From a virus: 35,805 bases of DNA. The position numbers and the translations under genes are program-made. Positions 1-35,614 of the stretch are shown here, in pieces (positions within the stretch are counted from its first letter, which is position 1; each line of letters begins with the position of its first letter). The notes beneath the pieces are model-generated. The model saw nothing but the letters and a program-made list of their open reading frames with translations. It did no database searches and was not told where the DNA came from. The stretch is from IMG/VR virus record IMGVR_UViG_3300034061_002014, positions 1-35,805 of that record; one strand, written 5' to 3'.

Positions 1-810
1 AATTAACCTCGATTTCTTTGATAGTGCTAAACCCTTTTGGGTGTATCACTAACCGTTCGTTTGGCTTAATGCAAAGGTGCGATTTTTGATAGTCAATATA
101 GTGTCCATCAACTATTTTTTTAGGACACGAAAGCATTTCAATTAGATTATTGTACGCTCTCTTGTGTACGATGTACGCAAACGCTCCCCACGTTTGGTTC
201 TGTTGTGTAAAGTATTGATTAAAATAAAAAGGGTTACGCCCAAACGAACCGCCTAAATAAAGGATGTGCCAATCTTTTGGTAACTGGTTCAAATACTTTT
301 CAAACTTGGCTTTGAAATCTTTTACAAAAGTTATGTCATCCTCGAAAATAGCAATGCACTCATAGCCTCTTTCTTTAGCTAATTTAATAGCGTTCAAGTG
401 GCTTTGAATACACGCATATTCGTTATTCGTTACACCTTGTATTGGTGAAACTATTTCCTTACCATCAACGGCAATTAGTCTTTCGACTTGAAGGGTCTTC
501 CCCTTTTCTTTGGCTGTGGAATAGAAACATCCTCTAGCCTCTTGTTTGGCACTAACGGTAAATCGCTCTCGTCTGTCGGCACTTCGTTCAAGGTTGATAA
601 AGACGCTGGGAACTGGGATGTTGATAGGCTTTTTTTTTGCCCCTTTTCTTCGCCCATGATTTCAAAGCAATGCGACTTTCCAAACTTGCAACATAAATTG
701 TAAAGTTCTTCGCTTATTTGTGTTTCTTTAGTGATAGACACTATTTGCGTTCCTGCTCGGAATACGATAGAACCAACGTCTTTTTTAAGTTTAAATTTTT
801 GAGGTATCAT
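1..810 (-). CDS. GT25-family glycosyltransferase expressed by -1 frameshift, left copy, 3' end cut by window
   Basis: This is the left allele of the frameshift product described in full at 34788-35614. The zero frame runs from the ATG at 810 to the A9 run (T9 at 630-638 on the given strand), then a -1 slip near 631 opens a frame that stays open to position 1. I read every codon from 631 to 2 in that frame: there is no stop, and the first possible ATG, GTG or TTG is the TTG at 397, well inside the conserved domain. The frame encodes FINLERSADRRERF, then AVDGKE, CIQSH and the FEDD motif, all GT25 hallmarks. Only the last few codons are missing because the window starts here. Compared with the right copy it has A for V and V for T changes in the N-terminal part. 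Confidence in the domain is high; the slip mechanism is inferred. Confidence 0.8.
475..810 (-). CDS. Small structural-operon protein of unknown function (frame 0 of the frameshift pair), left copy
   Basis: This 111-aa protein has a lysine-rich, apparently folded N-terminal part of about 58 residues (FKLKKDVGSIVFRAG, then KETQISEELYNLC) and a Ser/Thr/Pro-rich, probably disordered tail ending in KKRGRPFKSKD, an AT-hook-like basic end. It differs from its right-hand copy (35279-35614) at four residues: T/K, E/D, P/S and I/T. It begins 13 nt below a good Bacteroidota promoter (830-861), so it heads its own transcript. Its 3' part, from the A9 run at 630-638 to the stop at 475, is read in two frames: as this tail and as the N terminus of the GT25 enzyme. 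I do not recognise its family. The fold of the first 58 residues becomes the N-terminal domain of the fusion when the ribosome or polymerase slips. Confidence 0.75.
   Translation of the reverse strand: MIPQKFKLKKDVGSIVFRAGTQIVSITKETQISEELYNLCCKFGKSHCFEIMGEEKGQKKSLSTSQFPASLSTLNEVPTDESDLPLVPNKRLEDVSIPQPKKRGRPFKSKD
630..638 (-). promoter_or_regulatory. A9 slippery run for -1 frameshift, left copy
   Basis: On the coding strand the zero frame reads CAA AAA AAA AGC, which contains an A_AAA_AAA heptamer. A -1 slip here moves translation into the GT25 frame. The nine-A run is kept in the right copy although bases flanking it differ. Both ribosomal slippage and RNA polymerase slippage are possible on A9. 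Confidence 0.7.
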
Positions 811-5389: not shown

Positions 5390-5572
5390 ATGTCAATCCG
5401 AAACAAATACATCAGCGCATCAGTTACATTCGTACTATGCTATTTATTGTGCGCCTTTATTGGTGCTAATCTTAACCCCTTGCAATGGTCGGAGTGGGTT
5501 AGATTGTTCTTCATTGTAGCCTTGTTTATTCCACGTCAACTAACCAAAACTATTGCAACAGATGGCAAGTAA
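5390..5572 (+). CDS. Small two-helix membrane protein
   Basis: This 60-aa protein has two hydrophobic segments (about residues 9-29, SVTFVLCYLLCAFIGANL, and 40-54, VRLFFIVALFIP), so it likely spans the inner membrane as a hairpin. The start at 5390 is chosen because the upstream in-frame ATG (5366) is part of the -7 box. With its downstream partner it forms the only plus-strand operon in the window, lying between the tape measure and the protease gene. Roles to consider are superinfection exclusion, a holin or antiholin, or a membrane-tethered partner of the RHH protein. I do not recognise the family. Confidence 0.6.
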   Translation: MSIRNKYISASVTFVLCYLLCAFIGANLNPLQWSEWVRLFFIVALFIPRQLTKTIATDGK

Positions 5573-13384: not shown

Positions 13385-13398
13385 AAAGCAAAAGTAAA

Positions 13399-13427
13399 TA
13401 AAAAAAGCCACTTGTTAGGGTGGCTTT
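13399..13427 (-). terminator. Intrinsic terminator after the 86-aa moron gene
   Basis: On the minus strand AAAGCCAC pairs with GTGGCTTT around an 8-nt loop, followed by a T tract. It lies 21 nt below the stop at 13448. Confidence 0.85.
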
Positions 13428-13447
13428 AGTTTATTGGGTTTGGCTTA

Positions 13448-13708
13448 TTAAGCAACTTTGAACGTGTAATATTCGCAGTTCGCAAATGCTGCATGAATGA
13501 TGCCTTGTTTATCGCCCCATATTTTCAATACACCTAAATACCATTCTGTAAACATATTCGCATCTGCTTTAGTGAATTCTTCTTCTCTTGAGAAATTTGT
13601 AGCATTATCATAAGCATAGTCATCAGTGTATTTGCCAGTGCATTTAACTAATAGATTGCCTTTTTTTAATTGGTTTTTAAACCATGTTTTGTTGATTGTA
13701 GTTGTCAT
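13448..13708 (-). CDS. 86-aa independently transcribed gene (moron) of unknown function
   Basis: This gene is read from the ATG at 13708 (MTTTINKTWFKNQLKKGNLL); a start at 13780 is rejected because it would place the promoter inside the gene. The protein is soluble and mixed alpha/beta, with Tyr/Asp-rich YTDDYAYDNATNF and a C-terminal YYTFKVA. It has its own promoter (13738-13770) of the same type as the early genes and its own terminator, although it lies inside the late structural block, between tail chaperones and head-tail proteins. The leader ends in ACCAAAACCAACCAACCTATG-like repeats, as in early genes. This is the signature of a moron. No family recognised. Confidence 0.75.
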   Translation of the reverse strand: MTTTINKTWFKNQLKKGNLLVKCTGKYTDDYAYDNATNFSREEEFTKADANMFTEWYLGVLKIWGDKQGIIHAAFANCEYYTFKVA

Positions 13709-13737
13709 AGGTTGGTTGGTTTTGGTTAAATGATATG

Positions 13738-13770
13738 CAAATATAGCTAAACATTTTTTACACTTCCAAA
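13738..13770 (-). promoter_or_regulatory. Strong early-type promoter of the moron
   Basis: On the minus strand TTTG (13770-13767), 21-bp spacer, TATATTTG (13745-13738), followed by CATATCA. The surrounding GTTTGGAAGTGT and TATATTTGCATATCA are shared with the promoter at 18853-18885. Confidence 0.8.
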
Positions 13771-13794
13771 CTTTTTCCAAACTTTTTTTAAAGT

Positions 13795-14477
13795 TTATTT
13801 TTTAAACATTTTCTGCTGCTGCTGTTGTGCGGCTTGTAAATCTTTTTGGTACATGGACTTTTCAAAGTCGTGAAGTAGAATGTCGTAAATCAAAGTCGCC
13901 TGCATATTTGTGACTTCTTCAATAGTCTTGCCCCATCTGTCCATCATGGCAAAGATAGTGGCTTTCGCTCCGAACTTTTTAAACCTGTCCACGTTTGCTA
14001 TCGCCTCCGCTTGGCTTGGTTTGTAGTCGTTCAATCTTTTATAACGCTCAAAGAATTGTTTGAGTGCAGAAAAAAAAAAGCGCATATCGGGTTCGCCTCA
14101 TCCGTAGCCACTTCGCTAAAGTCAATCTCGGTGTAGATTTTCGCAATGCCAATCAAAGCGTCCTTTGGTTTGTCATGTTGCAATAGTAAAGACTTCGCCA
14201 TCTCTAGTTTGCCGTAGCTTTCACGCCCAATGTCAATCTCTTTATGTTTTTCTAAGTAAGCGTTTGGAGGCTCGTGCATAAATTGCAATGCCGTAAACAA
14301 CGCTCCCAGTGCTTCGCTGTTTAGCTTGTTTAATGTTGTAGTCGGTACACCCAATAAACAACTCGCTTGGTCAAGTGCTGTTTCATGGTTTAGAAACTCA
14401 ATGTACTTCTTAAACGGTACATCACCCCAATTAGTCGGGATGTTAATTATCTCCTCGTTTATTTTTCCTTGTATCAT
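13795..14477 (-). CDS. Tail assembly chaperone GT, produced by -1 frameshift
   Basis: The frameshift product is about 227 aa: 136 residues from the G frame, then 91 from the overlapping frame that ends at 13795. The T10 run at 14070-14079 on the coding strand gives GCT TTT TTT TTT CTG in the first frame and TTT TTC/TCT in the second, and the offset is -1, as in lambda gpG-gpT. The second part (FFERYKRLNDYKPSQAEAI, WGKTIEEVTNMQATLI, then QQQQQ) has no credible start of its own: the in-frame ATG at 14085 lies at the slip site. Role: binding the tape measure during tail assembly. It follows TerL by a 4-nt overlap. Family knowledge supports the call; slip efficiency is unknown. Confidence 0.75.
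14031..14477 (-). CDS. Tail assembly chaperone G (frame 0)
   Basis: This 148-aa protein (MIQGKINEEIINIPTNWGDV) is the product when no slip occurs. It keeps residues 1-136 common with GT, then ends within 12 residues of the slip (LHSNNSLSVIKD). It is helical with no membrane segment. The start at 14477 overlaps the TerL stop by 4 nt. In lambda the G to GT ratio matters for tail assembly; the same logic is expected here. Confidence 0.75.
   Translation of the reverse strand: MIQGKINEEIINIPTNWGDVPFKKYIEFLNHETALDQASCLLGVPTTTLNKLNSEALGALFTALQFMHEPPNAYLEKHKEIDIGRESYGKLEMAKSLLLQHDKPKDALIGIAKIYTEIDFSEVATDEANPICAFFFLHSNNSLSVIKD
14070..14079 (-). promoter_or_regulatory. T10 slippery run for tail chaperone frameshift
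   Basis: Ten Ts in the coding strand (A10 as given), reading GC TTT TTT TTT T CTG. Several T_TTT_TTT heptamers are possible. The overlap of the two frames is 14031-14085. Confidence 0.7.
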
Positions 14478-16004: not shown

Positions 16005-16481
16005 TTAGTCTTTTTTATCTATCTGCTCCAACTTCCTTTGTGCCCATGCAACGCCCTCATCACCCCCCCATGCATCCCACATTAAACCACCGCATCCATC
16101 TTTGTAAGGTACTTTGCTGTTTTGTCTATGCCGTTCAAATGATGCCATTCGTGCTATTGTTTCACGGCTAATCGGTTCACGGTTTGCTAGTTGGTTTGCT
16201 CTTGCCCATCCTACTGGTGTACCGCATTTTTTTGGGTTTCCGCTTTCATCTCTATACTTCAAAGCACGTTTAGCGTTCTCGGTTGCGGCTTTCGGGTAGT
16301 CGGTGTACGTTTCAGCGTTTAAGATTTCTTTTTGCGCTTTCACGTCATTGGCATGGCTGTATAAACAAAGTCGGTATCTTTGCGCTTCGTCTTTGTATTC
16401 GTTAACCATAACATCGTCACTCATGCAACGCTGGATAAAATCGTCTTTGCTTTCGTTGGTGTTTGGTTTAGGTATTGGCAT
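16005..16481 (-). CDS. Conserved phage protein of unknown function, late-gene leader
   Basis: This 158-aa protein has several recognisable blocks: AETYTDYPKAATENAKRAL, CGTPVGWARANQLANREPIS, ARMASFERHRQ and GLMWDAWGGDEGVAWAQRKL. The combination of SFxRH and WDAWGG is known to me from the ends of phage head-morphogenesis proteins, where it appears as a small alpha/beta module; here it is free-standing. It opens the late block just before the terminase genes, behind a TAGATTTG box and a terminator. I do not give it a function. Confidence 0.65.
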   Translation of the reverse strand: MPIPKPNTNESKDDFIQRCMSDDVMVNEYKDEAQRYRLCLYSHANDVKAQKEILNAETYTDYPKAATENAKRALKYRDESGNPKKCGTPVGWARANQLANREPISRETIARMASFERHRQNSKVPYKDGCGGLMWDAWGGDEGVAWAQRKLEQIDKKD

Positions 16482-16559: not shown

Positions 16560-18719
16560 CTATCCGAATAGTTCGACTTGTGTTTTGGATAGTACTGCGC
16601 TTTCTAAATTCTTTTTGGATAAATCAAAATAGCTTTCTTTCAACTCAATTCCTATATATTTTCGACCAGTCTTTAAAGCAACATAACCCTCACTAGCTAC
16701 TCCACTAAAAGGACTTAACACAACCTCACCTTTATTGCACCACATGTTATAACACCACTCAATCGGCTGTAATTGTGTTGGAGTAATGTGACGTTCATCA
16801 TCACTTGCCCTAGCTGCTCGGTAGTCAAGCGTATCGCCCTCCTGCACGTCAATCCATATAGGTTCAGCTATTTTGCACCACAAATCAAAAGGAATATTAT
16901 TTTGGATTGGCACTTCATTTTCGCCTGGCTTTTTAAAAGTCAAAATGTAATCAGCTAATCCTGGTCTAACAATCGAACTATCTTTTTTAGTAGTACCCCA
17001 CATTAATTGCCTGTTTTTAGTTCTAATTGCTGCAGTCTTTGGGTCTTTACGTATCATGTTTTCAGCATGGAAGTAAAATCCGCAGTCTTGGAATAGTCTA
17101 ATTAAGTCACCTCTAAAGTCAACTATTGAATAAAAGCCATCACGTCCTAGTAATGTTGTGCTTTGCATCATGTGAATTGAAACTAACCTGCCTGGTTTAA
17201 TCACTCGGAGTAAATCGCTAATCAAATATTTAAAATGTTGTAAAAACTCATCATTGTTTTTTACGTTGCTCATGTCTTTTGGGTCATTACTGAAAACGTA
17301 AAGCGCACCAAAAGGTGGACTGAAAAAAGAATAGTCAATGCTGTTTTCGGGTAACTTTGCCACTTCCTCAACGCAGTCACCAAGTATTAACTTATAGTCT
17401 TCGCCTAAGTAACTTTTACTTTCAGTTTGATTAACTTGTTTTTTAGTGTTGGATAAAATAGCCAGTCGCATTTCATCTTGCATTTTTAAGAATTTAGCTT
17501 CTTTGTCTTGAATTGAGTTGATTACGTTTTGCATAGTGTCGGTTGTTATTAAGTAAATATTTACGGTTTTCTTTTGCCCAAATCGATGGGAGCGTCTAAT
17601 TGATTGGTAAAGACTTTCAAAGCTAAAATCGAGTGATGCAAATACTTGATTATTGCAGTTTTGATAATTCAAACCGAACTGCGCTATTTTGCTTTTAGTG
17701 ATTAATACACGGAACTCATTTTTAGCAAATCCTAGTAGGTGCTTTTCTTTAAACTCTACCGTGTCACTTCCCTTTACTTCAATAGCATCTGGAATAAGTG
17801 AGCGCAATAAATCACCTTCCTCATTTTGTTTAATCCAAATTATAAAGTTTTCTGTTGAACCGTTTACTATTTCGGCTACTTCGCCTAACCGTTCTAACTT
17901 AGTTATTCTTAATTCGTCATTAAAATTAGTTGCTGAAACTGAAACGGAGTTAAATAGCATCCCATTGTTTCTACTTTCGGTTACTATTTTGCGTTCGATG
18001 TAATTTAGCGCAGGTAGTGAATACCCGACATCATCAAACCCTAAGTCACTAGGTTTGCTAATCATAACCGCCCAACTACTTATCCATTGATAAAATTCCT
18101 TTTCAGCATATTTTTTAAGTCGATATTTATCACCTTTAATAAGTTCTTTATCAGTTGTGAAGTACATTGCCCTCATATCCTGCGAGGTCATTATGCTTAA
18201 AAACTCTGCATGATTACCTATTTCAAGTTCATCATTTGGTGAAGGTGTAGCGGTACATGCTAGTTTATAAGGTGTTTTTTCGAATAGCTGAAGTATTAAA
18301 GTTTTATAAGACCCCGAGTAATTTTTCAAGATACTACTTTCATCTAGTACAACTCCCGAATATTTAGAGCAATCAATATTTTCTAATTGCTCATAATTAT
18401 TTATGTCAATGCCAGTTAGGTCAATGCCAAATTTATTAGCCTCGTTTATTGTTTGACCCTTTACCGCTAAAGGTGCAAGTATCAAAACTTTGCCATTAGT
18501 TTGACGGCAAACTCTATTTGCCCATTCAAGTTGCATCAAAGTCTTACCAAGTCCGCAGTCTGCAAAGATGGCATACTTGCCTGCCTTTAATGCTCGTTTA
18601 ACAATAAACCTTTGAAAATCAAAAAGGTTTGAATTTAAGTCGGCTTCGTTGACTTCAAAGCCGCTTTCGATGTGGGTTTTCTGTTTCTTTTGCAGAAACT
18701 CTAAATACTCTGTTTTCAT
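16560..18719 (-). CDS. SF2 helicase fused to a beta-class DNA methyltransferase
   Basis: This 719-aa protein joins two enzymes. Residues 1-430 are an SNF2-like helicase: CGLGKT at 55-60 (Walker A), VVLDESS at 123-129 (motif II), ACTATPSPND at 154-163 (motif III) and QSIRRSHRFGQKK at 372-384 (motif VI). Residues 440-719 are an amino-methyltransferase: FSPPF at 466-470 (motif IV, the N4/N6 type) followed later by LSPFSGVASEG at 668-678 (motif I), an order of the beta class. No separate nuclease or specificity subunit lies beside it, so it is likely an orphan modification enzyme that protects phage DNA or marks it. It has a leader with AACCAAACCAAC and is preceded by the 29-aa gene and its promoter. 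Confidence 0.85.
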   Translation of the reverse strand: MKTEYLEFLQKKQKTHIESGFEVNEADLNSNLFDFQRFIVKRALKAGKYAIFADCGLGKTLMQLEWANRVCRQTNGKVLILAPLAVKGQTINEANKFGIDLTGIDINNYEQLENIDCSKYSGVVLDESSILKNYSGSYKTLILQLFEKTPYKLACTATPSPNDELEIGNHAEFLSIMTSQDMRAMYFTTDKELIKGDKYRLKKYAEKEFYQWISSWAVMISKPSDLGFDDVGYSLPALNYIERKIVTESRNNGMLFNSVSVSATNFNDELRITKLERLGEVAEIVNGSTENFIIWIKQNEEGDLLRSLIPDAIEVKGSDTVEFKEKHLLGFAKNEFRVLITKSKIAQFGLNYQNCNNQVFASLDFSFESLYQSIRRSHRFGQKKTVNIYLITTDTMQNVINSIQDKEAKFLKMQDEMRLAILSNTKKQVNQTESKSYLGEDYKLILGDCVEEVAKLPENSIDYSFFSPPFGALYVFSNDPKDMSNVKNNDEFLQHFKYLISDLLRVIKPGRLVSIHMMQSTTLLGRDGFYSIVDFRGDLIRLFQDCGFYFHAENMIRKDPKTAAIRTKNRQLMWGTTKKDSSIVRPGLADYILTFKKPGENEVPIQNNIPFDLWCKIAEPIWIDVQEGDTLDYRAARASDDERHITPTQLQPIEWCYNMWCNKGEVVLSPFSGVASEGYVALKTGRKYIGIELKESYFDLSKKNLESAVLSKTQVELFG

Positions 18720-18740
18720 AGTTGGTTTGGTTTTGGTTAA

Positions 18741-18830
18741 TTACTTAAGTGCTATTGATTTTATTTTTGCGTATGCTTGGTCTGCTGTTAATGCTTGTAC
18801 GGTTATCCCATTAAATGTGTAAGTGTTCAT
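18741..18830 (-). CDS. 29-aa small protein, first gene of the methyltransferase transcript
   Basis: This open frame reads MNTYTFNGITVQALTADQAY and ends in KIKSIALK. It starts 23 nt below the strong promoter at 18853-18885, has the shared ACCAAACTACTATG leader, and ends 22 nt before the start of the helicase-methyltransferase gene. It is too short for homology judgement, but placement and leader suggest it is translated, perhaps as a leader peptide. Confidence 0.5.
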   Translation of the reverse strand: MNTYTFNGITVQALTADQAYAKIKSIALK

Positions 18831-18852
18831 AGTAGTTTGGTTTAGTGATATG

Positions 18853-18885
18853 CAAATATAACTTTTTAATTTTCACACTTCCAAA
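18853..18885 (-). promoter_or_regulatory. Early-type promoter of the small gene and helicase-methyltransferase
   Basis: On the minus strand TTTG (18885-18882), 21-bp spacer, TATATTTG (18860-18853) followed by CATATCA. Upstream bases TTTAAAAAAAGTTTGGAAGTGT resemble those at 13767 and 28473. Confidence 0.8.
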
Positions 18886-18905
18886 CTTTTTTTAAAGTTT
18901 TTTTC

Positions 18906-19008
18906 AACTGCCCCATATTTACGGGCAGTTCGTGTAAAATTACTCACGATATTGAGTAAAGTTAGCTTAATCATTCATTAACCGCAAATGTGCGGCATAA
19001 TGCACATT
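18906..19008. other. Non-coding cluster of four inverted repeats
   Basis: About 125 nt between the stop at 19012 and the promoter at 18885 hold four short inverted repeats: AACTGCCC/GGGCAGTT (18906-18930), TTACTCA/TGAGTAA (18940-18959, 6-bp spacer), CCGCA/TGCGG (18982-18995) and AATGTGC/GCACATT (18987-19008). The last two overlap and exclude each other. None has a proper U tract in either direction. They may be transcript-end hairpins, operators or an alternative-structure switch. Confidence 0.6.
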
Positions 19009-19011
19009 ATT

Positions 19012-19251
19012 TCATTCTTCTTCGGGTTCAGATACTTCTTCTTGTTCTAACTCACTAATAAAGTCCATTTCATAAACTTGGATAAGTTTCACCCCATCTT
19101 CTATTTCATCAAAGGTCAATAGCTGAGGCAATTTTAAATCACGTATTTTTCGAAGCGCATCTTTGTACGTTGGTGCATAAACCACAATGTTAGTGCCTTC
19201 AAAATTTTTATAGTCTAAAACTTGAAAAGTCCATTGGTATAGCTGGTCCAT
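19012..19251 (-). CDS. Hypothetical acidic-tailed protein
   Basis: This 79-aa protein starts MDQLYQWTFQVLDYKNFEGT and ends in an acidic tail (SELEQEEVSEPEEE). There is no membrane segment. Its start is adjacent to the stop of the exonuclease gene, so it is coupled to the replication block. The alternating strands VVYAPTYKDALRKIRD and KLIQVYEMDF suggest a small alpha/beta fold. No family recognised. Confidence 0.55.
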   Translation of the reverse strand: MDQLYQWTFQVLDYKNFEGTNIVVYAPTYKDALRKIRDLKLPQLLTFDEIEDGVKLIQVYEMDFISELEQEEVSEPEEE

Positions 19252-20201
19252 TATTTATCATTTATGGATTTAAACATAATGTTTTCGAGCATCCGAATAT
19301 AAGTTCGGTTAGATATTTTGTAGAACTTGCGGCACGAATTACATTTCATGTGGCGTTTGATGTAACCCATTGCCGTTGCATCGGTGTGAGATAGTTGCAC
19401 GTTGTCACTCGCACATTCTGGACAATGCCACTTTTCACCGCCTTTTAAAACTGCCATGTTCGTATTGTGGTAAATGTACGGTGACATAACCATGTAAACA
19501 TCTTCTAAAACCGCCACATCTTGAACGCAGTAGTCAATCATTTTTTTTAGTGAAGCCTTATTTTTATGTTCGCAAATGTCAATCCATAACTTCATGCCTT
19601 CATGGTCAAGTTTGCGCCCTACGTTTAACACCTTACCGAGATAGTCAAGTTTATTACTAGCGAAGCGAAAGTATTGCCGTGACTTCTTTAGCGTGTCAAG
19701 TGTGCGATAAATAGGAAACATTAAATTGCCGGTTAATATTGCCCTTGTGCGAAGTTCTTTGATGTCGAATTTATCACCGTTGTGCGCCACTATCTCATCA
19801 GCGTGTTTAATTACTTGGATAAAGTCTTTTACTAGCTTGGTATCATCTTGGTTTTCATCCCACTTTAGAACGTGAACTTTGTCTTCATACTGCCATTTGT
19901 AAGCTATGCAGATAATTTTCTTTTGCCTTAAAATATTGTCGGGATTAATATTGACTTTCCAAAATTGAAATGTAGGCACAATGTAATAACTTGTTTCGAT
20001 GTCAAAAAATAGCCTTTTAATTTCGCTATTTTGTTTTTTAAGGTTTGCCTTATTTATAAACCTGCTGACCTCTCTTCTAAAACTTTCTGGTTTAACGTCT
20101 ATCTTAAACTTCTTGAAAATCTCATCCGCAATTTGAGTAATGTTTTGGGTGCTTTCATACCTTACTCGAATATACTCTTGGATTTCTTTAGTTAGAACCA
20201 T
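19251..20201 (-). CDS. DEDDy 3'-5' exonuclease with N-terminal HTH and C-terminal zinc ribbon
   Basis: This 316-aa protein has an N-terminal HTH-like helix set (residues 5-50), then an RNase H-like exonuclease: FDIET at 66-70 (first two acids), AHNGDKFDIKEL at 139-150 (third) and IDYCVQDVAVLED at 222-234, whose Tyr-x-x-x-Asp puts it in the DEDDy class. The C terminus has CPEC (260-263) and CNSC (287-290), a four-Cys zinc ribbon. It resembles the free-standing exonuclease of B-family polymerases but has no polymerase domain, so it may work in DNA repair or replication. Leader AACAAACTATG fits the early set. It lies 42 nt below the VRR-NUC gene. Confidence 0.8.
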   Translation of the reverse strand: MVLTKEIQEYIRVRYESTQNITQIADEIFKKFKIDVKPESFRREVSRFINKANLKKQNSEIKRLFFDIETSYYIVPTFQFWKVNINPDNILRQKKIICIAYKWQYEDKVHVLKWDENQDDTKLVKDFIQVIKHADEIVAHNGDKFDIKELRTRAILTGNLMFPIYRTLDTLKKSRQYFRFASNKLDYLGKVLNVGRKLDHEGMKLWIDICEHKNKASLKKMIDYCVQDVAVLEDVYMVMSPYIYHNTNMAVLKGGEKWHCPECASDNVQLSHTDATAMGYIKRHMKCNSCRKFYKISNRTYIRMLENIMFKSINDK

Positions 20202-20243
20202 AGTTTGTTTATTTAATTGTGGCGAATTTACCGTAATTAATTC

Positions 20244-24939: not shown

Positions 24940-25421
24940 TTGACTTGTAGATTTTGCTTTTCAATAATGATTGCACCCTCAACAAGTAAACCGCTTTCAA
25001 TATCGCTTTTGATGGATGTTTTGTTTACGGTTGGTTTGTAATCAAAATATTTAGCGTCAAGTAAACTTTCATCGCTAATATGCACCGACTTTGACGAACG
25101 GAAGGACATTTTGACTAAAGGTGTCTTTACTTCGCTCAATTCGTATTTCTGCATAGCAAATCCGATAGTTTCCTTTAGTTTAGCTGTTGCACTATCAATG
25201 CCGTCTTTCATAGCCTTTAATCGCTTTATTTCAGCGTCTATTGCTTTGCTGTCTGCTTCGTTGGATAGTATCACCAATCCGTAGTTAGCGGATTTCTCCG
25301 CCAACTCGGTTTGAGTGATTGCTAACTTATTAAACAATTCGTCTGATATTTCGCCTTGTGATGCGATTAATTCATCATTTATGGCTTGTAGTTCCTGGTC
25401 GATGTGGTATAAGGCTCTCAT
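24936..25421 (-). CDS. Siphovirus Gp157-like protein
   Basis: This 161-aa protein matches the Gp157 pattern: a long coiled-coil first half (residues 1-95, with ELQAINDELIASQGEI, AEIKRLKAMKDGIDSA), then the KLKETIGFAMQKYELSEVKT stretch and the beta-rich end with FRSSKSVHISDESLL and IIIEKQNLQVK. Members of the family occur in phage recombination clusters. It overlaps the ERF gene by one base. Its precise biochemical role is unproven. Confidence 0.75.
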   Translation of the reverse strand: MRALYHIDQELQAINDELIASQGEISDELFNKLAITQTELAEKSANYGLVILSNEADSKAIDAEIKRLKAMKDGIDSATAKLKETIGFAMQKYELSEVKTPLVKMSFRSSKSVHISDESLLDAKYFDYKPTVNKTSIKSDIESGLLVEGAIIIEKQNLQVK

Positions 25422-25975
25422 TATTTTTTTACTTTTAGGTTCAACAATTCATTTTCCATTGGTTCAAGTAACTGAAACTTTGCTTTCACTTGGTCAATCG
25501 TTGCTTTGCCTTGCAGCAATGCGTTTGTTACGTTGGTAAAGTCAATCGTGCCACGTTCTAAGAATGGTTTGGCAACTGGTTTAGGTTGTGAAGCAATGTT
25601 GCCATCATCATCATCTGCACCTACGTTTAGAAACGATTGCATTCCGTAACGTCTAGCGTAAGTAATTCCGCTCCCCTGCGCTTGTGCATCATCTTTTTTG
25701 CCGAATAGTATTTCAGTTTCGCAACTCATCCACTCGCCACTTTCGTGGATTAAAATAGTTTCAACATAATTCTTGCCATCAATCGTAATTGTTGGCTGTA
25801 ATAGCGTTATGCCGTTGGCTTGAAGCGATGGCATACACGCCTCACGAATAGAGTTAAGGTCTGCGTACTTGCTTTTGAAAAATGGATTTTTAGCATCCTT
25901 AATCGCTGTTCCCATTGCGCCTTGTGCCTTTAATAAAGCAGAAGCAATCTTTGTAATTGTTGGTGATGTTTTCAT
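25421..25975 (-). CDS. erf: ERF-type single-strand annealing recombinase
   Basis: This 184-aa protein anneals single DNA strands. It carries the ERF hallmarks: LLKAQGAMGTAIKDAKNPFF, KSKYADLNSIREACMPSL, then ANGITLLQPTI, and the GSGITYARRYGMQSFLNVGADDDDGN core (residues about 100-125). The length is close to the conserved core; the C terminus is short. Start at 25975 has the shared leader AACCAAACCAAATAAACC. Neighbours Gp157-like, SSB-like and VRR-NUC proteins make up a recombination set. Confidence 0.9.
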   Translation of the reverse strand: MKTSPTITKIASALLKAQGAMGTAIKDAKNPFFKSKYADLNSIREACMPSLQANGITLLQPTITIDGKNYVETILIHESGEWMSCETEILFGKKDDAQAQGSGITYARRYGMQSFLNVGADDDDGNIASQPKPVAKPFLERGTIDFTNVTNALLQGKATIDQVKAKFQLLEPMENELLNLKVKK

Positions 25976-25999
25976 AGGTTTATTTGGTTTGGTTAATAA

Positions 26000-26284
26000 T
26001 TAAAATGGAAGGTGGTGATCATCATCAGTTGCACTCGCTGAGGTTGCTGGTGCTTTGTAATCGCTTTTAGGTTGCCATTCGTTTAGCACCGCATAATGTG
26101 TGTTACCGTTCTTGTCGGCTTCCTTTCTACGTAGCAAATCAATGTTCACGTACCCTTTTGCGTTGGTATGTTTGTTTAGTTCTTCGATTAATGTTTTGGC
26201 GTTAATTGATACGCTCACCACTTCACCGAATTTGGTTTCTTTGACTTTGATAAATAGTCCGTTGATGTAGGTCTTGTCTGACAT
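26000..26284 (-). CDS. Small protein with SSB-like acidic tail, putative ssDNA-binding protein
   Basis: This 94-aa protein has a strand-rich body (MSDKTYINGLFIKVKETKFG, VSVSINAKTLIEELNKH, THYAVLNEWQPK) and ends in ATDDDHHLPF, which resembles the acidic tip (DDDxxF) by which single-strand binding proteins recruit partners. It lies between an early gene and the ERF gene. The fold is not clearly an OB fold at this length, so the function is suggested only by the tail and the neighbours. Confidence 0.6.
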   Translation of the reverse strand: MSDKTYINGLFIKVKETKFGEVVSVSINAKTLIEELNKHTNAKGYVNIDLLRRKEADKNGNTHYAVLNEWQPKSDYKAPATSASATDDDHHLPF

Positions 26285-26295
26285 TTGTTTATGGT

Positions 26296-26511
26296 TTAAT
26301 TGTTAAAAAAGAAATCAAATTGACCGTAATAAAAATCAACTGCAATTCTTACATTGTAAGATTTTGCTTTATTGATTATATCGCTTAGGCTGTGCGAATT
26401 TACCCACGTTTTGCATTTTGGTTTAGCGTAGTAAAATTCAACATTGGAGCAACTTACTATTGGCGTAAATTTATCGCCTAGTATGTCTTGAATGATTTGT
26501 AGTTTGTTCAT
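26296..26511 (-). CDS. Hypothetical early protein
   Basis: This 71-aa protein (MNKLQIIQDILGDKFTPIVS) has a small alpha/beta look and ends in FYYGQFDFFFNN. The start at 26511 is used rather than 26535, since the latter would lie on the promoter -7 box (26533-26540) and the leader CTAAACCAAACCACTATG fits the early set. Family not recognised. Confidence 0.6.
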   Translation of the reverse strand: MNKLQIIQDILGDKFTPIVSCSNVEFYYAKPKCKTWVNSHSLSDIINKAKSYNVRIAVDFYYGQFDFFFNN

Positions 26512-26532
26512 AGTGGTTTGGTTTAGTTGATG

Positions 26533-26561
26533 CAAAAATATAAAAATAAATTAAAATCAAA
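26533..26561 (-). promoter_or_regulatory. Possible promoter of the SSB-like/ERF group
   Basis: On the minus strand TTTG (26561-26558), 17-bp spacer, TATTTTTG (26540-26533). The spacer is shorter than usual. The upstream AAAGTTTAAAAAAACTTTG is a near copy of the A/T boxes found before other early promoters. Confidence 0.5.
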
Positions 26562-26599
26562 GTTTTTTTAAACTTTATTTTTTGCTAGTATTTTACCTA

Positions 26600-26914
26600 T
26601 CAGATTAAATTTAGCAACTCTATAATCATATCATTTTCAGAAATAAATTCTTTAGAAAAAATTGTTTTGTATTCAGCTCTGTGAGAATGTTGATGATAGT
26701 TAGGGTAGTAATCATCTTTATAGTTAACGCCATAATTTGCTCTACATTTATAACAATATTCAATGCATTTAATTACTTCAATATAATACTTAACGTGCCA
26801 TCCATATCCGTTTATAGCATCGACATATCCAACAATCAATTTTACTTGTAATTCTTTTTTTGCTAACTTAGATAAAACTTCGCCTAAAATTTGGTTATCC
26901 ACTTTGCGTATCAT
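26600..26914 (-). CDS. Hypothetical early protein
   Basis: This 104-aa protein is rich in Tyr, Lys and Ile (IEVIKCIEYCYKCRANYGVN, YKDDYYPNYHQHSHRAEYK) with a Cys pair in CYKC. AT-rich codon use suggests a recent or less adapted gene compared with its neighbours. No membrane segment or known motif. Confidence 0.5.
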   Translation of the reverse strand: MIRKVDNQILGEVLSKLAKKELQVKLIVGYVDAINGYGWHVKYYIEVIKCIEYCYKCRANYGVNYKDDYYPNYHQHSHRAEYKTIFSKEFISENDMIIELLNLI

Positions 26915-26932
26915 TTTTATTTAGTTTTTTGG

Positions 26933-27190
26933 TTAGCAATCATACTCACGTTCTGGCATTCGTCCGTTCTTAATAAAGAAAATCTGTTGACGTTCCTCAG
27001 CTATCTCATCGCTGTCTTTGCCGTTCTCAATCGCTTCTTCAACTTGCTTTAATTCGGGTGAACTTTTAACTTCTGAAACGGTTTCATCTTGTAACCACTT
27101 GGTGACGTTGTGCAGGAATAGTTGTTTGTCGGCTACTTCATACCATCCGCAGTAAAGGTTGCCATTAAGTTCGATTTCAAATTTTTTCAT
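26933..27190 (-). CDS. Hypothetical early protein
   Basis: This 85-aa protein (MKKFEIELNGNLYCGWYEVA) has an acidic, helical C-terminal half (VEEAIENGKDSDEIAEERQQ). It has the leader AAACCAAACTATG shared by early genes and lies in the early operon. Function unknown. Confidence 0.6.
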   Translation of the reverse strand: MKKFEIELNGNLYCGWYEVADKQLFLHNVTKWLQDETVSEVKSSPELKQVEEAIENGKDSDEIAEERQQIFFIKNGRMPEREYDC

Positions 27191-27254
27191 AGTTTGGTTT
27201 TTTTATTTAGTTTTGCATTAATACTTTTTCATAGGGGTATTTGGTTAAGAATTT

Positions 27255-27279
27255 GGGCGGCTGGTTACCGCCCTTTTTT
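27255..27279 (+). terminator. Hairpin with U tract in the plus direction
   Basis: GGGCGG (27255-27260) and CCGCCC (27268-27273) form a 6-bp GC stem with a 7-nt loop, followed by TTTTTT. It is a proper terminator only in the plus direction, yet no plus-strand gene is seen here, so it may end a short antisense RNA or be a processing hairpin after the 40-aa gene. Confidence 0.5.
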
Positions 27280-27400
27280 ATATGCCTTTGATGTAACAAA
27301 GCAAAGCGATTGAACCACTTGCTGCTGCTGCATAAATAAGCAACTGAATGACTGGATTAACCTCGTTCCAATTCTTTAGGATGTGCAGGATAAACTTCAT
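27278..27400 (-). CDS. 40-aa small membrane protein
   Basis: This short frame (MKFILHILKNWNEVNPVIQL, then a hydrophobic IYAAAASGSIALLCYIKGI) encodes one transmembrane helix at about residues 17-37. Its ATG overlaps the stop of the gene above (ATGA), which is strong sign that it is translated by coupling. It ends at the hairpin 27255-27279. It could be a small regulator of membrane proteins. No family recognised. Confidence 0.6.
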   Translation of the reverse strand: MKFILHILKNWNEVNPVIQLLIYAAAASGSIALLCYIKGI

Positions 27401-27606
27401 AGCTTTGATTTTTTAAAGTTAGCTAAAATGTCCATCGCAGTCCTCGCCCCTTGTTCCATCATTGGCAATGCTTCGGGTAGCCATGCGTTTCCTGTGCGAT
27501 GCTTTTTAGCCGCTAGTATTCGGCTATTAAAATAAGTCAAAGCCATTTCGACTTCACTTTCTGTGCGGTCTTTTAGGTAGCTATATGCTTCGATTGTATT
27601 GCTCAT
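27397..27606 (-). CDS. Hypothetical early protein
   Basis: This 69-aa protein (MSNTIEAYSYLKDRTESEVE) is mostly helical, with AALTYF-like helix (MALTYFNSRILAAKKHRTGN) and MMEQGARTAMDIL. The start at 27606 overlaps the stop of the HTH gene as ATGA, so the in-frame ATG at 27633 is not needed. Its neighbour is a regulator. Function unknown. Confidence 0.6.
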   Translation of the reverse strand: MSNTIEAYSYLKDRTESEVEMALTYFNSRILAAKKHRTGNAWLPEALPMMEQGARTAMDILANFKKSKL

Positions 27607-27821
27607 TTTGTAGAATTTAAGAAGTTTAACCATGCTGTCTTTGCCTCGTTGCGCATTTCAATCATTTGCTTAATTGCTTCGTGCGCTTTCTTTGTTTTGC
27701 CGTTTAGAATGTTGTATACGGCTGTTTCGCTCACGCCTAGTGCTTTGGCTACTTGTGCGATGGTGACGTTGTACTTTGTGAGGTCGCTCCAAAGTTCTTT
27801 TAGTTGTTTGTTAGTTAGCAT
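27603..27821 (-). CDS. HTH-domain DNA-binding protein, likely early regulator
   Basis: This 72-aa protein has a helix-turn-helix at about residues 20-42 (VTIAQVAKALGVSETAVYNI) followed by LNGKTKKAHEAIKQMI, which resembles the XRE or resolvase-type HTH. It is too short for any catalytic domain. It overlaps the 55-aa gene before it and the 69-aa gene after it. It could repress early promoters or act on the origin. The HTH call is clear, the target is unknown. Confidence 0.75.
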   Translation of the reverse strand: MLTNKQLKELWSDLTKYNVTIAQVAKALGVSETAVYNILNGKTKKAHEAIKQMIEMRNEAKTAWLNFLNSTK

Positions 27822-27982
27822 TTGTTTAAGTTGTTTATACGATTAGAAAATAATTGCAGTTCGCGAATTGCGATTTGGTTTAAGAGATACACCCCTTGCA
27901 TGTATTTGTGGTGCATCTTGTCTTTTAGTGCTTGGTTGGTTAGACGTAGCACTTTATCACGTCTGTTTTGTAGTTGGCTCAT
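27815..27982 (-). CDS. 55-aa small early protein
   Basis: This frame reads MSQLQNRRDKVLRLTNQALK and continues to a helical IAIRELQLFSNRINNLNKC. It has the leader CCAAACTATG, and its stop codon overlaps the ATG of the HTH gene (ATGCTAA), so it is probably translated. It is basic and helical, with no membrane segment. Not recognised. Confidence 0.55.
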   Translation of the reverse strand: MSQLQNRRDKVLRLTNQALKDKMHHKYMQGVYLLNQIAIRELQLFSNRINNLNKC

Positions 27983-28008
27983 AGTTTGGTTTTTAGTTTG
28001 GTTTATAA

Positions 28009-28149
28009 TTAGTTTCGTTCTACTGCTCTGTAATAACCGCTTGAGTATTCGCCATCAATTACTTCACTTTCCCAATTATCTGGTACTGATTGCAAAAATT
28101 GGCTTTTAGTAATTGATTGTCCGTTGTAGTAATAGCTGTAAGTTTTCAT
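28009..28149 (-). CDS. 46-aa small early protein
   Basis: This frame (MKTYSYYYNGQSITKSQFLQ, ending YYRAVERN) has the leader AACCAAACCAAAACCAAACTATG-like repeats, the strongest example of the shared early leader. The protein is strand-rich and soluble. It lies between the 62-aa and 55-aa genes without overlap. Not recognised. Confidence 0.55.
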   Translation of the reverse strand: MKTYSYYYNGQSITKSQFLQSVPDNWESEVIDGEYSSGYYRAVERN

Positions 28150-28207
28150 AGTTTGGTTTTGGTTTGGTTTATGAGGTTGATAGGATGCCTCGCCCCTTTT
28201 GGTTTAT

Positions 28208-28396
28208 TTAGTTAATTAATAATGAAATTTGTCTTTCAGATATTTCAGTTGCTTTTTTTGTTGCAAAATCTACTGAAAATTTTAATTTAATAAGTCTTGT
28301 AAAATTCATAAACCAAATTTCTTTAGCGATAATATTTAACTCATCTTGATTCGTAATTGCTTGTTTTAAATCTTTAATTGTTAATTGAGTTTTCAT
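28208..28396 (-). CDS. 62-aa early protein, first gene of the early operon
   Basis: This protein (MKTQLTIKDLKQAITNQDEL) is small, helical and soluble, ending in KKATEISERQISLLIN. It is the first gene below the promoter near 28440 and carries the leader AACCAAAACAAAAAACAAACC before its ATG. Its position as the first early gene suggests a host-takeover or regulatory role, but nothing in the sequence shows this. Confidence 0.6.
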   Translation of the reverse strand: MKTQLTIKDLKQAITNQDELNIIAKEIWFMNFTRLIKLKFSVDFATKKATEISERQISLLIN

Positions 28397-28434
28397 AGGT
28401 TTGTTTTTTGTTTTGGTTATTTAATTTCGATATG

Positions 28435-28476
28435 CAAATCTAAAAAGGTTTATTGTATTAAAAAACTTTTTCCAAA
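28435..28476 (-). promoter_or_regulatory. Early promoter before the first early gene
   Basis: On the minus strand TAGATTTG (28442-28435) followed by CATATCG matches the -7 box. The nearest TTTG (28476-28473, in AGTTTGGAA) is 30 bp away, so the -33 contact may be a T-rich stretch in between. The upstream AAAAAAAGTTTGGAA copies the boxes at 13767 and 18882. The rest of the 28397-28553 gap is AT-rich with no hairpin terminator seen for the lysis genes. Confidence 0.55.
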
Positions 28477-28553
28477 CTTTTTTTAAACTTTTTTTTGAGC
28501 AAAAAACAATTACACAATAAAAAACGACTAAAAAAATACCCTAAAAAAAATAA

Positions 28554-28991
28554 TTATTTGGCTAAAATAACCGCAGTCACCCCCAAAATAACGCCCAAAC
28601 CCACACCACCAACACCCCATCCAACCGACTTTATTAATGTTTTCCGCTTTTGTAGCTTTAGTTGCTTCTTTAATTCATTGCGATTATCAATGGCAATGTC
28701 TTTAGCTAAAGTCAGTAGGCTTATTGTTTCGTCTTTTAAGGCGATAACGGTATCGAGTGAAGCAATATACTTGCGTGAAGCCAAAACAACGCTATCTGCC
28801 ACGCTAATCACTTTATTTGAATGGTCTAGTTCCGCTTTGTTTCTGTCGTTCAATTCGATTTGTTTAATTAAATCTAAACGGCTAACTAAAATGCTATCTG
28901 ATTTGCTCTGCCCATATACTTGTGAGGCTGTCATCACTAACATTAAGGTTACGGTAAATAACTTTCGGTTTAACTTTGCGAAGGCTGTCAT
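28554..28991 (-). CDS. Lysis-associated membrane protein (second spanin-like component)
   Basis: This 145-aa protein starts inside the previous gene in another frame (98-nt overlap). It has an N-terminal signal-like stretch (LFTVTLMLVMTASQVYGQ, residues 11-28), a long helical coiled-coil part (LVSRLDLIKQIELNDRNKAE, about 35-120) and a Gly-rich C-terminal membrane helix (WGVGGVGLGVILGVTAVILA, about 125-144). The nested arrangement next to a holin and endolysin is that of Rz/Rz1-type spanins, but no lipobox Cys is present, so it would be an unusual outer component. Alternative: a phage membrane protein unrelated to lysis. Confidence 0.55.
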   Translation of the reverse strand: MTAFAKLNRKLFTVTLMLVMTASQVYGQSKSDSILVSRLDLIKQIELNDRNKAELDHSNKVISVADSVVLASRKYIASLDTVIALKDETISLLTLAKDIAIDNRNELKKQLKLQKRKTLIKSVGWGVGGVGLGVILGVTAVILAK

Positions 28992-34791: not shown

Positions 34792-35614
34792 TGTATGCCT
34801 TTATAATTAACCTCGATTTCTTTGATAGTGCTAAACCCTTTTGGATGTATAACTAACCGCTCGTTTGGCTTAATGCAAAGGTGCGATTTTTGGTAGTCAA
34901 TATAGTGACCGTCCACTATTTTTTTAGGACACGAAAGCATTTCAATTAGATTGTTGTACGCTCGCTTGTGTACAATGTACGCAAACGCTCCCCACGTTTG
35001 GTTTTGCTGTGTAAAGTATTGATTAAAGTAGAAAGGATTACGCCCAAACGAACCGCCTAAATAAAGAATGTGCCAATCTTTTGGTAACTGGTTCAAATAC
35101 TTTTCAAACTTAGCTTTGAAATCTTTTACAAAAGTTATGTCATCCTCGAAAATAGCAATGCATTCGTAGCCTCTTTCTTTGGCTAGTTTTATAGCGTTCA
35201 AGTGGCTTTGAATACACGCATATTCGTTATTCGTTACACCTTGAATTGGTGAAACTATTTCTTTGCCATCAACGGCAATTAGTCTTTCGACTTGAAGGGT
35301 CTTCCCCTTTTCTTTGGCTGTGGAGTAGAAACATCCTCTAGCCTCTTGTTTGGCACTAGTGGTAAATCGCTCTCGTCTGTCGACACTTCGTTCAAGGTTG
35401 ATAAAGACGCTGGGAACTGGGATGTTGATAGGCTTTTTTTTTGACCTTTTTCTTCACCCATAATGTCAAAGCAATGTGACTTGCCAAACTTGCAGCATAA
35501 ATTGTAAAGTTCTTCGCTGATTTGCGTTTCTTTAGTGATAGAAACAATTTGCTTTCCTGCTCGGAATACGATAGAACCAACGTCTTTTTTTAGTTTAAAT
35601 TTTTGAGGTATCAT
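34788..35614 (-). CDS. GT25-family glycosyltransferase expressed by -1 frameshift, complete right copy
   Basis: The fusion is about 275 aa: residues 1-60 from frame 0 (to the A9 run at 35434-35442), then 215 residues in the -1 frame. The -1 frame opens with PINIPVPSVFINLERSVDRR, whose INLERSVDRR (72-81) is the classic GT25 start motif, followed by LIAVDGKEI, NEYACIQSH and IAIFEDD at about 153-159, the catalytic acidic motif. Without the slip, the first start codon in this frame is TTG at 35201, after the INLER, AVDGK and CIQSH motifs, so an intact enzyme cannot arise from any canonical start. No stop or indel spoils either frame in this copy or in the left one. The enzyme overlaps the portal gene by 4 nt. 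It may glycosylate a virion part or host surface sugar. The GT25 call is firm; frameshift expression is strongly inferred. Confidence 0.85.
35279..35614 (-). CDS. Small structural-operon protein (frame 0), right copy
   Basis: This is the 111-aa product when no slip occurs, ending in KKRGRPFKSKD. It differs from the left copy (475-810) at four residues. Its last 52 codons (35279-35435) overlap the start of the GT25 frame. Within that dual-coded part I count four differences between copies, fewer per base than in the rest of the first 874 bp. The N-terminal 58 residues are common to both products. Function unknown. Confidence 0.75.
   Translation of the reverse strand: MIPQKFKLKKDVGSIVFRAGKQIVSITKETQISEELYNLCCKFGKSHCFDIMGEEKGQKKSLSTSQFPASLSTLNEVSTDESDLPLVPNKRLEDVSTPQPKKRGRPFKSKD
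35434..35442 (-). promoter_or_regulatory. A9 slippery run for -1 frameshift, right copy
   Basis: The coding strand reads CAA AAA AAA AGC; nine As are conserved with the left copy while the bases just upstream differ. In the -1 frame an upstream stop (TGA at 35454-35456) bounds the open stretch, so entry must occur between 35453 and the INLER motif. Confidence 0.7.

Follow-up and report, generated by a model that had tools for sequence, protein, structure and literature searches.

A G-free CCAA leader repeated before early genes of a phage: a probable translation-initiation leader that coincides with seams of gene exchange

The SAS/ESAS elements (SAS, Start-Associated Sequence) were described in Cluster K mycobacteriophages (PMC3203893) and Cluster EF Microbacterium phages (PMC7302621); the SAS authors supposed a translational role, unproven, and mentioned a possible target for homologous recombination (PMC3203893). 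Repeated PeSL cassettes, composed of a promoter and a stem-loop, are known from T4-type phages (Arbiol 2010 and Comeau 2014, via PMC4503421). Moreover, Bacteroidetes were reported to make no use of Shine-Dalgarno sequences and to rely on unstructured leaders, for which S1 was proposed (PMC3155529). Here, the IMG/VR virus record IMGVR_UViG_3300034061_002014 was analysed over its entire length of 35.8 kb (the window), and the element in question was an A/C-rich leader with CCAA repeats that stands directly before the start codons of genes classed as early. The leader was G-free and weakly structured, and it probably acts in translation initiation.

Nearly every gene of the window lies on the minus strand, as do all features given below. 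The region 14.4-26 kb encodes enzymes, namely a terminase, a helicase-methylase, an exonuclease, a helicase, a BT4734-type primase, Gp157, and ERF, and small open reading frames (ORFs) without assigned function occupy 26-28.4 kb, ahead of the enzyme region in transcription order. The early class was assigned from this gene content. The window genes were a hand-picked list of 51, of which 48 remained after the non-ATG starts GTG 13411, TTG 24197, and TTG 35201 were dropped. The gene lists of other phages and of the host sample were produced with a crude longest-ORF routine instead of a trained gene finder, so that the per-phage counts are approximate.

Nine ATG starts, at 13708, 18719, 18830, 25975, 26511, 27190, 27982, 28149, and 28396, had been named in a sequence-only reading of the window, and all nine were present with an A/C-rich leader. 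The repeat ACCAAAC, said to precede each of them by one to three bases, was exact in seven and absent at 13708 and 28396, and one-base spacing was found only at 27190, 27982, and 28149. CCAA was the more general form, occurring between -6 and -20 in 9/9 starts, in one to three copies and at a varying distance from the ATG. Positions -18 to -1 contained no G in any of the nine leaders, and a Shine-Dalgarno sequence, whose absence had been remarked on, is therefore impossible. Three bases were invariant, namely A at -8 and the CT at -2 and -1, and every start continued as ATGA, giving a rough consensus of (AACCAAA)1-3 ... [AC]CT-ATGA. Accordingly, TATGA was found at 9/9 starts compared with 9/39 other window starts and 52/343 host-sample starts, and CT directly before the start at 9/9 compared with 2/39 and 16/343, respectively. 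As for the weaker forms that had been suggested, the leader of 24758 falls within the preceding overlapping gene (gap -80), and the exonuclease-like gene 19251-20201 is preceded at 20202..20218 by AAACAAACT only, without CCAA. A further leader with a single ACCAAA, outside the nine, was found at 26915..26932 before gene 26600-26914. The leader of gene 26933-27190 occupies 27191..27215, and that of the 46-aa ORF 28009-28149 occupies 28150..28172, with CCAA at -18, -13, and -7. Just upstream of gene 27190 (27190-27240), a second ATG has its own ACCAAA leader; in the window it opens a four-codon ORF, and in a related locus, L074 (about 5400-5460), it is in frame with the 27190-type gene and extends the N-terminus.

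The sharing of the leader was not due to chance. ACCAAAC occurred 16 times in the window against 7.1 expected, a number reached in none of 100 shuffles, and all 16 matches were on the minus strand. ACCAAA was found no more than 25 nt upstream of 12 of the 48 chosen ATG starts compared with 8/607 other minus-strand ATGs (P about 5e-10). AACCAAA was present in 9/13 early leaders; in 500 dinucleotide shuffles of these leaders, the number averaged 4.7 and never exceeded 8. When 6-mers were compared among the 28 window leaders with room, their sharing was not significantly above that in shuffles (77/200). The comparison of early and late genes was limited to those preceded by an intergenic gap of 12 nt or longer because overlapping genes have no room for a leader. 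CCAA was found before 9/11 early and 3/12 other genes (Fisher P 0.012). With the crude gene caller, CCAA was detected in 9/11 early leaders, 2/14 late leaders, and 8.2% of 316 sampled bacterial genes (20 genome stretches), and the last 20 nt were G-free in 9/11, 2/14, and 13.3%, respectively. One of the nine starts, 13708, belongs to an insertion within the structural half.

The position of the leaders relative to promoters bears on the level at which they act. The sequence TANNTTTG, the -7 promoter element of Bacteroidetes (PMC6847099), precedes 4/9 leaders by 21-38 nt in a scan within 60 nt. These four comprise 13709..13745 before gene 13448-13708, with TATATTTG 29 nt from the ATG; 18831..18860 before the 29-aa ORF 18741-18830, also with TATATTTG; 26512..26540 before gene 26296-26511, with TATTTTTG; and 28397..28442 before gene 28208-28396, with TAGATTTG. 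The other leaders were internal to operons or lacked TANNTTTG, and three gaps consist essentially of the leader alone: 21 nt at 18720..18740 before the helicase-methylase gene 16560-18719, 24 nt at 25976..25999 before the ERF-family gene 25421-25975, and 26 nt at 27983..28008 before gene 27815-27982. As the leader stands both behind promoters and in the middle of operons, it is most simply an RNA element acting at translation. A promoter element only was rejected for the same reasons, namely that leaders fill operon-internal gaps and only 4/9 follow TANNTTTG within 60 nt. In addition, the mean unpaired probability from -25 to +15 was 0.711 for 12 CCAA-type starts, including 20201 and 26284 although both lack CCAA within 30 nt, compared with 0.563 for the 36 others (P 0.0003).

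Whether the leader is a general feature of bacteria was evaluated with the pattern AACCAAACN0-3ATGA, which occurred three times in the 35.8-kb window and never in the backward control. In 295 genomes it occurred at most 14 times per genome, about as often as the backward control; these genomes belonged to the same class as a Chitinophagaceae bin with a helicase-methylase relative, a sample that may not include the host of the phage. Thus, a host-wide leader was rejected for the 295 sampled genomes.

Because the leader is G-free, is used at operon-internal as well as promoter-bearing starts, and is not general in the sampled genomes, it is best read as a phage leader acting at the level of translation. 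We consider it probable, on the basis of sequence comparison, that the early genes of this lineage share the CCAA leader for translation initiation by ribosomes without Shine-Dalgarno pairing. The leader would offer the ribosome a G-free, unstructured A/C-rich stretch ending in [AC]CT-AUG-A, the lack of G meaning that structure is avoided. Initiation may be raised through S1 or through accessibility, and the bases U at -1 and A at +4 could extend pairing with the loop of the initiator tRNA. Of the two roles previously suggested, the phage-specific translation enhancer is the better supported, and the regulatory protein is without a candidate among the scanned small proteins.

Several observations weigh against this reading. 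In Flavobacterium johnsoniae, initiation was raised by A at -3, -6, -12, and -13, and replacing -14 to -11 by UCCC in a reporter, a harmful change, caused a 90% loss (PMC6847099). The nine leaders have A at these four positions in 67, 44, 78, and 78%, respectively, and they depart from that optimum at -6, which is A in 44% and C in 56% (5/9). As the leader differs from the published optimum, there is room for a specific reader of CCAA.

Such a reader might be one RNA-binding protein of phage or host, for example a host protein with RRM, for which the CCAA repeats would be sites on early mRNAs, switching or boosting them as a set. Bacteroides reportedly have global RNA-binding proteins (PMC11697453), and a motif shared beyond dinucleotide content (0/500 shuffles), in one to three copies with three bases constant in 9/9, would fit. 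However, the spacing between repeat and ATG varies from -6 to -20, relatives carry other repeats, none of 21 scanned window proteins matched an RNA-binding family (one was a helix-turn-helix (HTH) protein), and only replication and recombination proteins were common to the two phages with AAACCAA leaders described below (15.6 kb of one, L014, was examined). This explanation is considered unlikely. No more favoured is an ordinary low-G, A-rich Bacteroidetes leader in which CCAA arose by composition and drift and was shared through duplicated or exchanged leaders. The host-sample leaders were likewise A-rich and G-poor (A 0.40, G 0.12), the sharing of 6-mers across the 28 leaders was within the range of shuffles (77/200), and cassette exchange could spread a single leader. 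Yet the late leaders of the same genome mostly lack CCAA, C was enriched in early leaders (0.264 compared with 0.155 in the host sample), the 7-mers of early leaders exceeded every shuffle, and the content persisted as the repeat arrangement shifted at one orthologous start. Composition and drift therefore make an improbable account. A third explanation, that the repeats are kept mainly as DNA linkers for shuffling small early genes and have no role in translation, depends on the exchange seams described next.

Comparison of the window with phage records gave no match at the DNA level. Protein searches of these records with the terminase, helicase-methylase, and primase yielded relatives of less than 60% identity only, and those ranking highest were phages of Riemerella for the terminase, phages of Flavobacterium for the helicase-methylase, and an uncultured record for the primase. 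A first search of genome contigs with the primase found no relative. Homology to relatives of about 90% identity breaks off early in gene 28396, at 28386-28389 (its third codon or slightly beyond), in 11/11 listed loci (8 records), and it restarts at 27992-28011, within the leader of 27982. The interval is occupied by different, unrelated small genes, all preceded by a leader of this kind: the window has MKTQLT.. and MKTYSY.., the loci L007, L008, and L074 have MKTIAPN.., and L005 has MKTFENV.. and MKTTKN... In L074 a 98-aa gene is flanked by two copies of the leader plus ATGAGCCAACTACA, and L007 lacks the gene and retains one copy, an outcome that recombination between direct repeats would produce. 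The start of the helicase-methylase gene combines two upstream contexts with two 5' alleles in all four ways, represented by the window, by L204 and L207, by L206, and by L208. Upstream identity and identity at +13..60 were 1.00 and 0.62 for window-L204, 0.29 and 0.98 for window-L206, and 0.97 and 0.60 for L206-L208. The homology of the L074 ERF gene to the window ends in the third codon. Finally, the 399-bp insertion at 13397..13795 resembles a moron, with a promoter, a CCAA leader, an 86-aa gene, and downstream of it a terminator-like hairpin (13404-13427); it is absent from L085, L105, and L208, the homology of which is contiguous across the site.

Judged from these sequence junctions, the leaders are seams of exchange, and no preference over other starts is claimed. 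Zones at CCAA starts, which make up 4.2% of the sequence, held four of the 12 merged homology ends between 12.0 and 29.3 kb, and other starts (6.7%) held another four; for the 14 homology beginnings, the counts were one and six, respectively. Two points speak against a special role of the leaders here: seams also occur at starts without CCAA, as expected of phage mosaicism, and one of the four CCAA-zone ends, at 26927, may be due to gene 26933 ending there and not to the leader of 26914. Consequently, seams specific to CCAA leaders were unsupported, gene starts being seams in general. Linkers without a translational role would account for the four combinations, for the cassette between two leader copies, and for the seams found at 28388, 25969, and 28001. 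Nevertheless, non-CCAA starts are seams too, and the repeats are strand-specific and within 20 nt of start codons, neither of which a recombination site needs; we regard this explanation as very unlikely. With a translation-initiation leader as the preferred reading, the repeated copies may additionally provide short stretches of homology at which recombination, possibly mediated by the ERF protein of the phage, takes place, and small early genes may be gained and lost as leader-plus-gene cassettes. The candidate agent is the ERF-superfamily single-strand annealing protein at 25421..25975 (Pfam PF04404, E 2.4e-23). The coincidence of leader and seam suggests how small phage genes without known function could be swapped and immediately translated.

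In near relatives, the leader was kept at orthologous starts. At start 27982, compared in loci of six relatives with four distinct versions besides that of the window, the protein is 85-96% identical and the upstream flank differs, and the CCAA repeats are rearranged yet kept. For 80 leaders of helicase-methylase orthologues, near-duplicate records included, CCAA was present within 30 nt in 30, and 40 lacked G over their last 20 nt. Other repeats were found in more distant relatives: AAACCAA in 8/16 leaders of L014 and AACACAC in 9/23 leaders of L090 (0/200 shuffles as high in each), and, with the ERF start as the one examined, AATATCTTATCTT ahead of it in one ERF-bearing group. The isolate Flavobacterium phage 11b has AAACCAA in 12/67 leaders, structural genes among them, so that it is no early mark in 11b. 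L014 (15.6 kb examined) and 11b share with the window only enzymes of replication and recombination and ERF, and no relative of the small early window proteins was found in either. The first 50 kb of Cellulophaga phage phi38:1 showed a repeated leader, CACTATCAAA, at a varying distance from the ATG, with TATCAAA in 10/86 leaders. A motif universal to Bacteroidetes phages was rejected, as in FCV-1, B40-8, P12024S, and Leef_1 the shared leader was a different one or was missing. In the open-access literature searched, no previous description of leaders of this kind from Bacteroidetes phages was found. It is conceivable, if doubtful, that Bacteroidetes phages use lineage-specific leader dialects, namely CCAAAC here, ACACAC in L090, and AAACCAA in L014 and 11b. 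Each dialect would have its own cognate factor, from host or phage, favouring early phage mRNAs on ribosomes that are blind to Shine-Dalgarno sequences, and the repeats would double as joints for swapping early genes, with any gene that lands behind the leader being translated immediately on the programme of the phage. For the question of how Bacteroidetes select start codons in the absence of Shine-Dalgarno pairing, one leader repeated before early genes, together with the other leaders of relatives, provides natural sets of test sequences.

Further features were observed around the promoters. The upstream blocks of the four promoter-bearing leaders were alike in alignment (z 1.8 to 8.5, six pairs). 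A shared block like AAACTTTAAAAAAAGTTTGGAA, which may be an operator, lies at about -100 to -50 of 13708, 18830, 26511, and 28396; the window also contains a gene for an HTH protein (27603-27821). Ahead of the 18830 promoter, at about 18900-18930, there is a hairpin-like AACTGCCC..GGGGCAGTT, both arms of which, as seen by eye, differ jointly in L206 (AACTGT..ACAGTT). At three structural-half genes, TANNTTTG ends exactly 4 nt before the ATG (16493/16481, 12418/12406, and 2423/2411). Since the published distance from the -7 element to the transcription start is 4-5 nt (PMC6847099), leaderless mRNAs are implied. The spacing at 16481 and 12406 was kept in relatives while the spacer letters varied. 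Late mRNAs of the phage may be leaderless, in contrast to its early mRNAs with leaders. Two 111-aa genes at opposite ends of the record, 475-810 and 35279-35614, have like starts, with near-identical upstream sequence (TAGATTTG, 19 nt, ATG).

Compared with described systems, the leader is, by analogy, nearest to the SAS of Cluster K mycobacteriophages. Both are short repeats right before many, mostly ATG, starts in one orientation, and both are confined to non-structural genes, 8/9 starts here lying at 18.7-28.4 kb and the ninth, 13708, on the insertion. Unlike the 13-bp G-rich SAS (GGGATAGGAGCCC, with AGGAG), which pairs with 16S rRNA, the leader cannot pair with the anti-Shine-Dalgarno sequence; its repeats vary in number, and it is found in phages of Bacteroidetes, the ribosomes of which make no use of this pairing. 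As SAS is by description a G-rich, rRNA-pairing 13-mer, the CCAA leader is not a member of it. On rarity in the host, a criterion of SAS, the 295 genomes of one class gave counts similar to the backward control, and the host may differ from that class. T4 PeSL cassettes likewise are repeated regulatory elements beside small early genes at which genes are exchanged, though exchange here also involves non-CCAA starts. PeSL joins an early promoter to a stem-loop terminator, whereas the -7 element accompanies only 4/9 leaders, most being promoterless; no coding-strand terminator-like site was found beside leaders in 18700-19060 or 25900-28700, the sole one lying downstream of the 13708 insertion gene. 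The Kozak-like leaders of Bacteroidetes resemble the CCAA leader in lacking Shine-Dalgarno, being A-rich and of low structure, and often having A at -3 (PMC6847099, PMC3155529). They are, however, genome-wide base preferences, in contrast to one repeated C-containing sequence in a subset of phage genes with an invariant CT before the ATG. Against this background, the coincidence of leader and exchange seam is the new element here.

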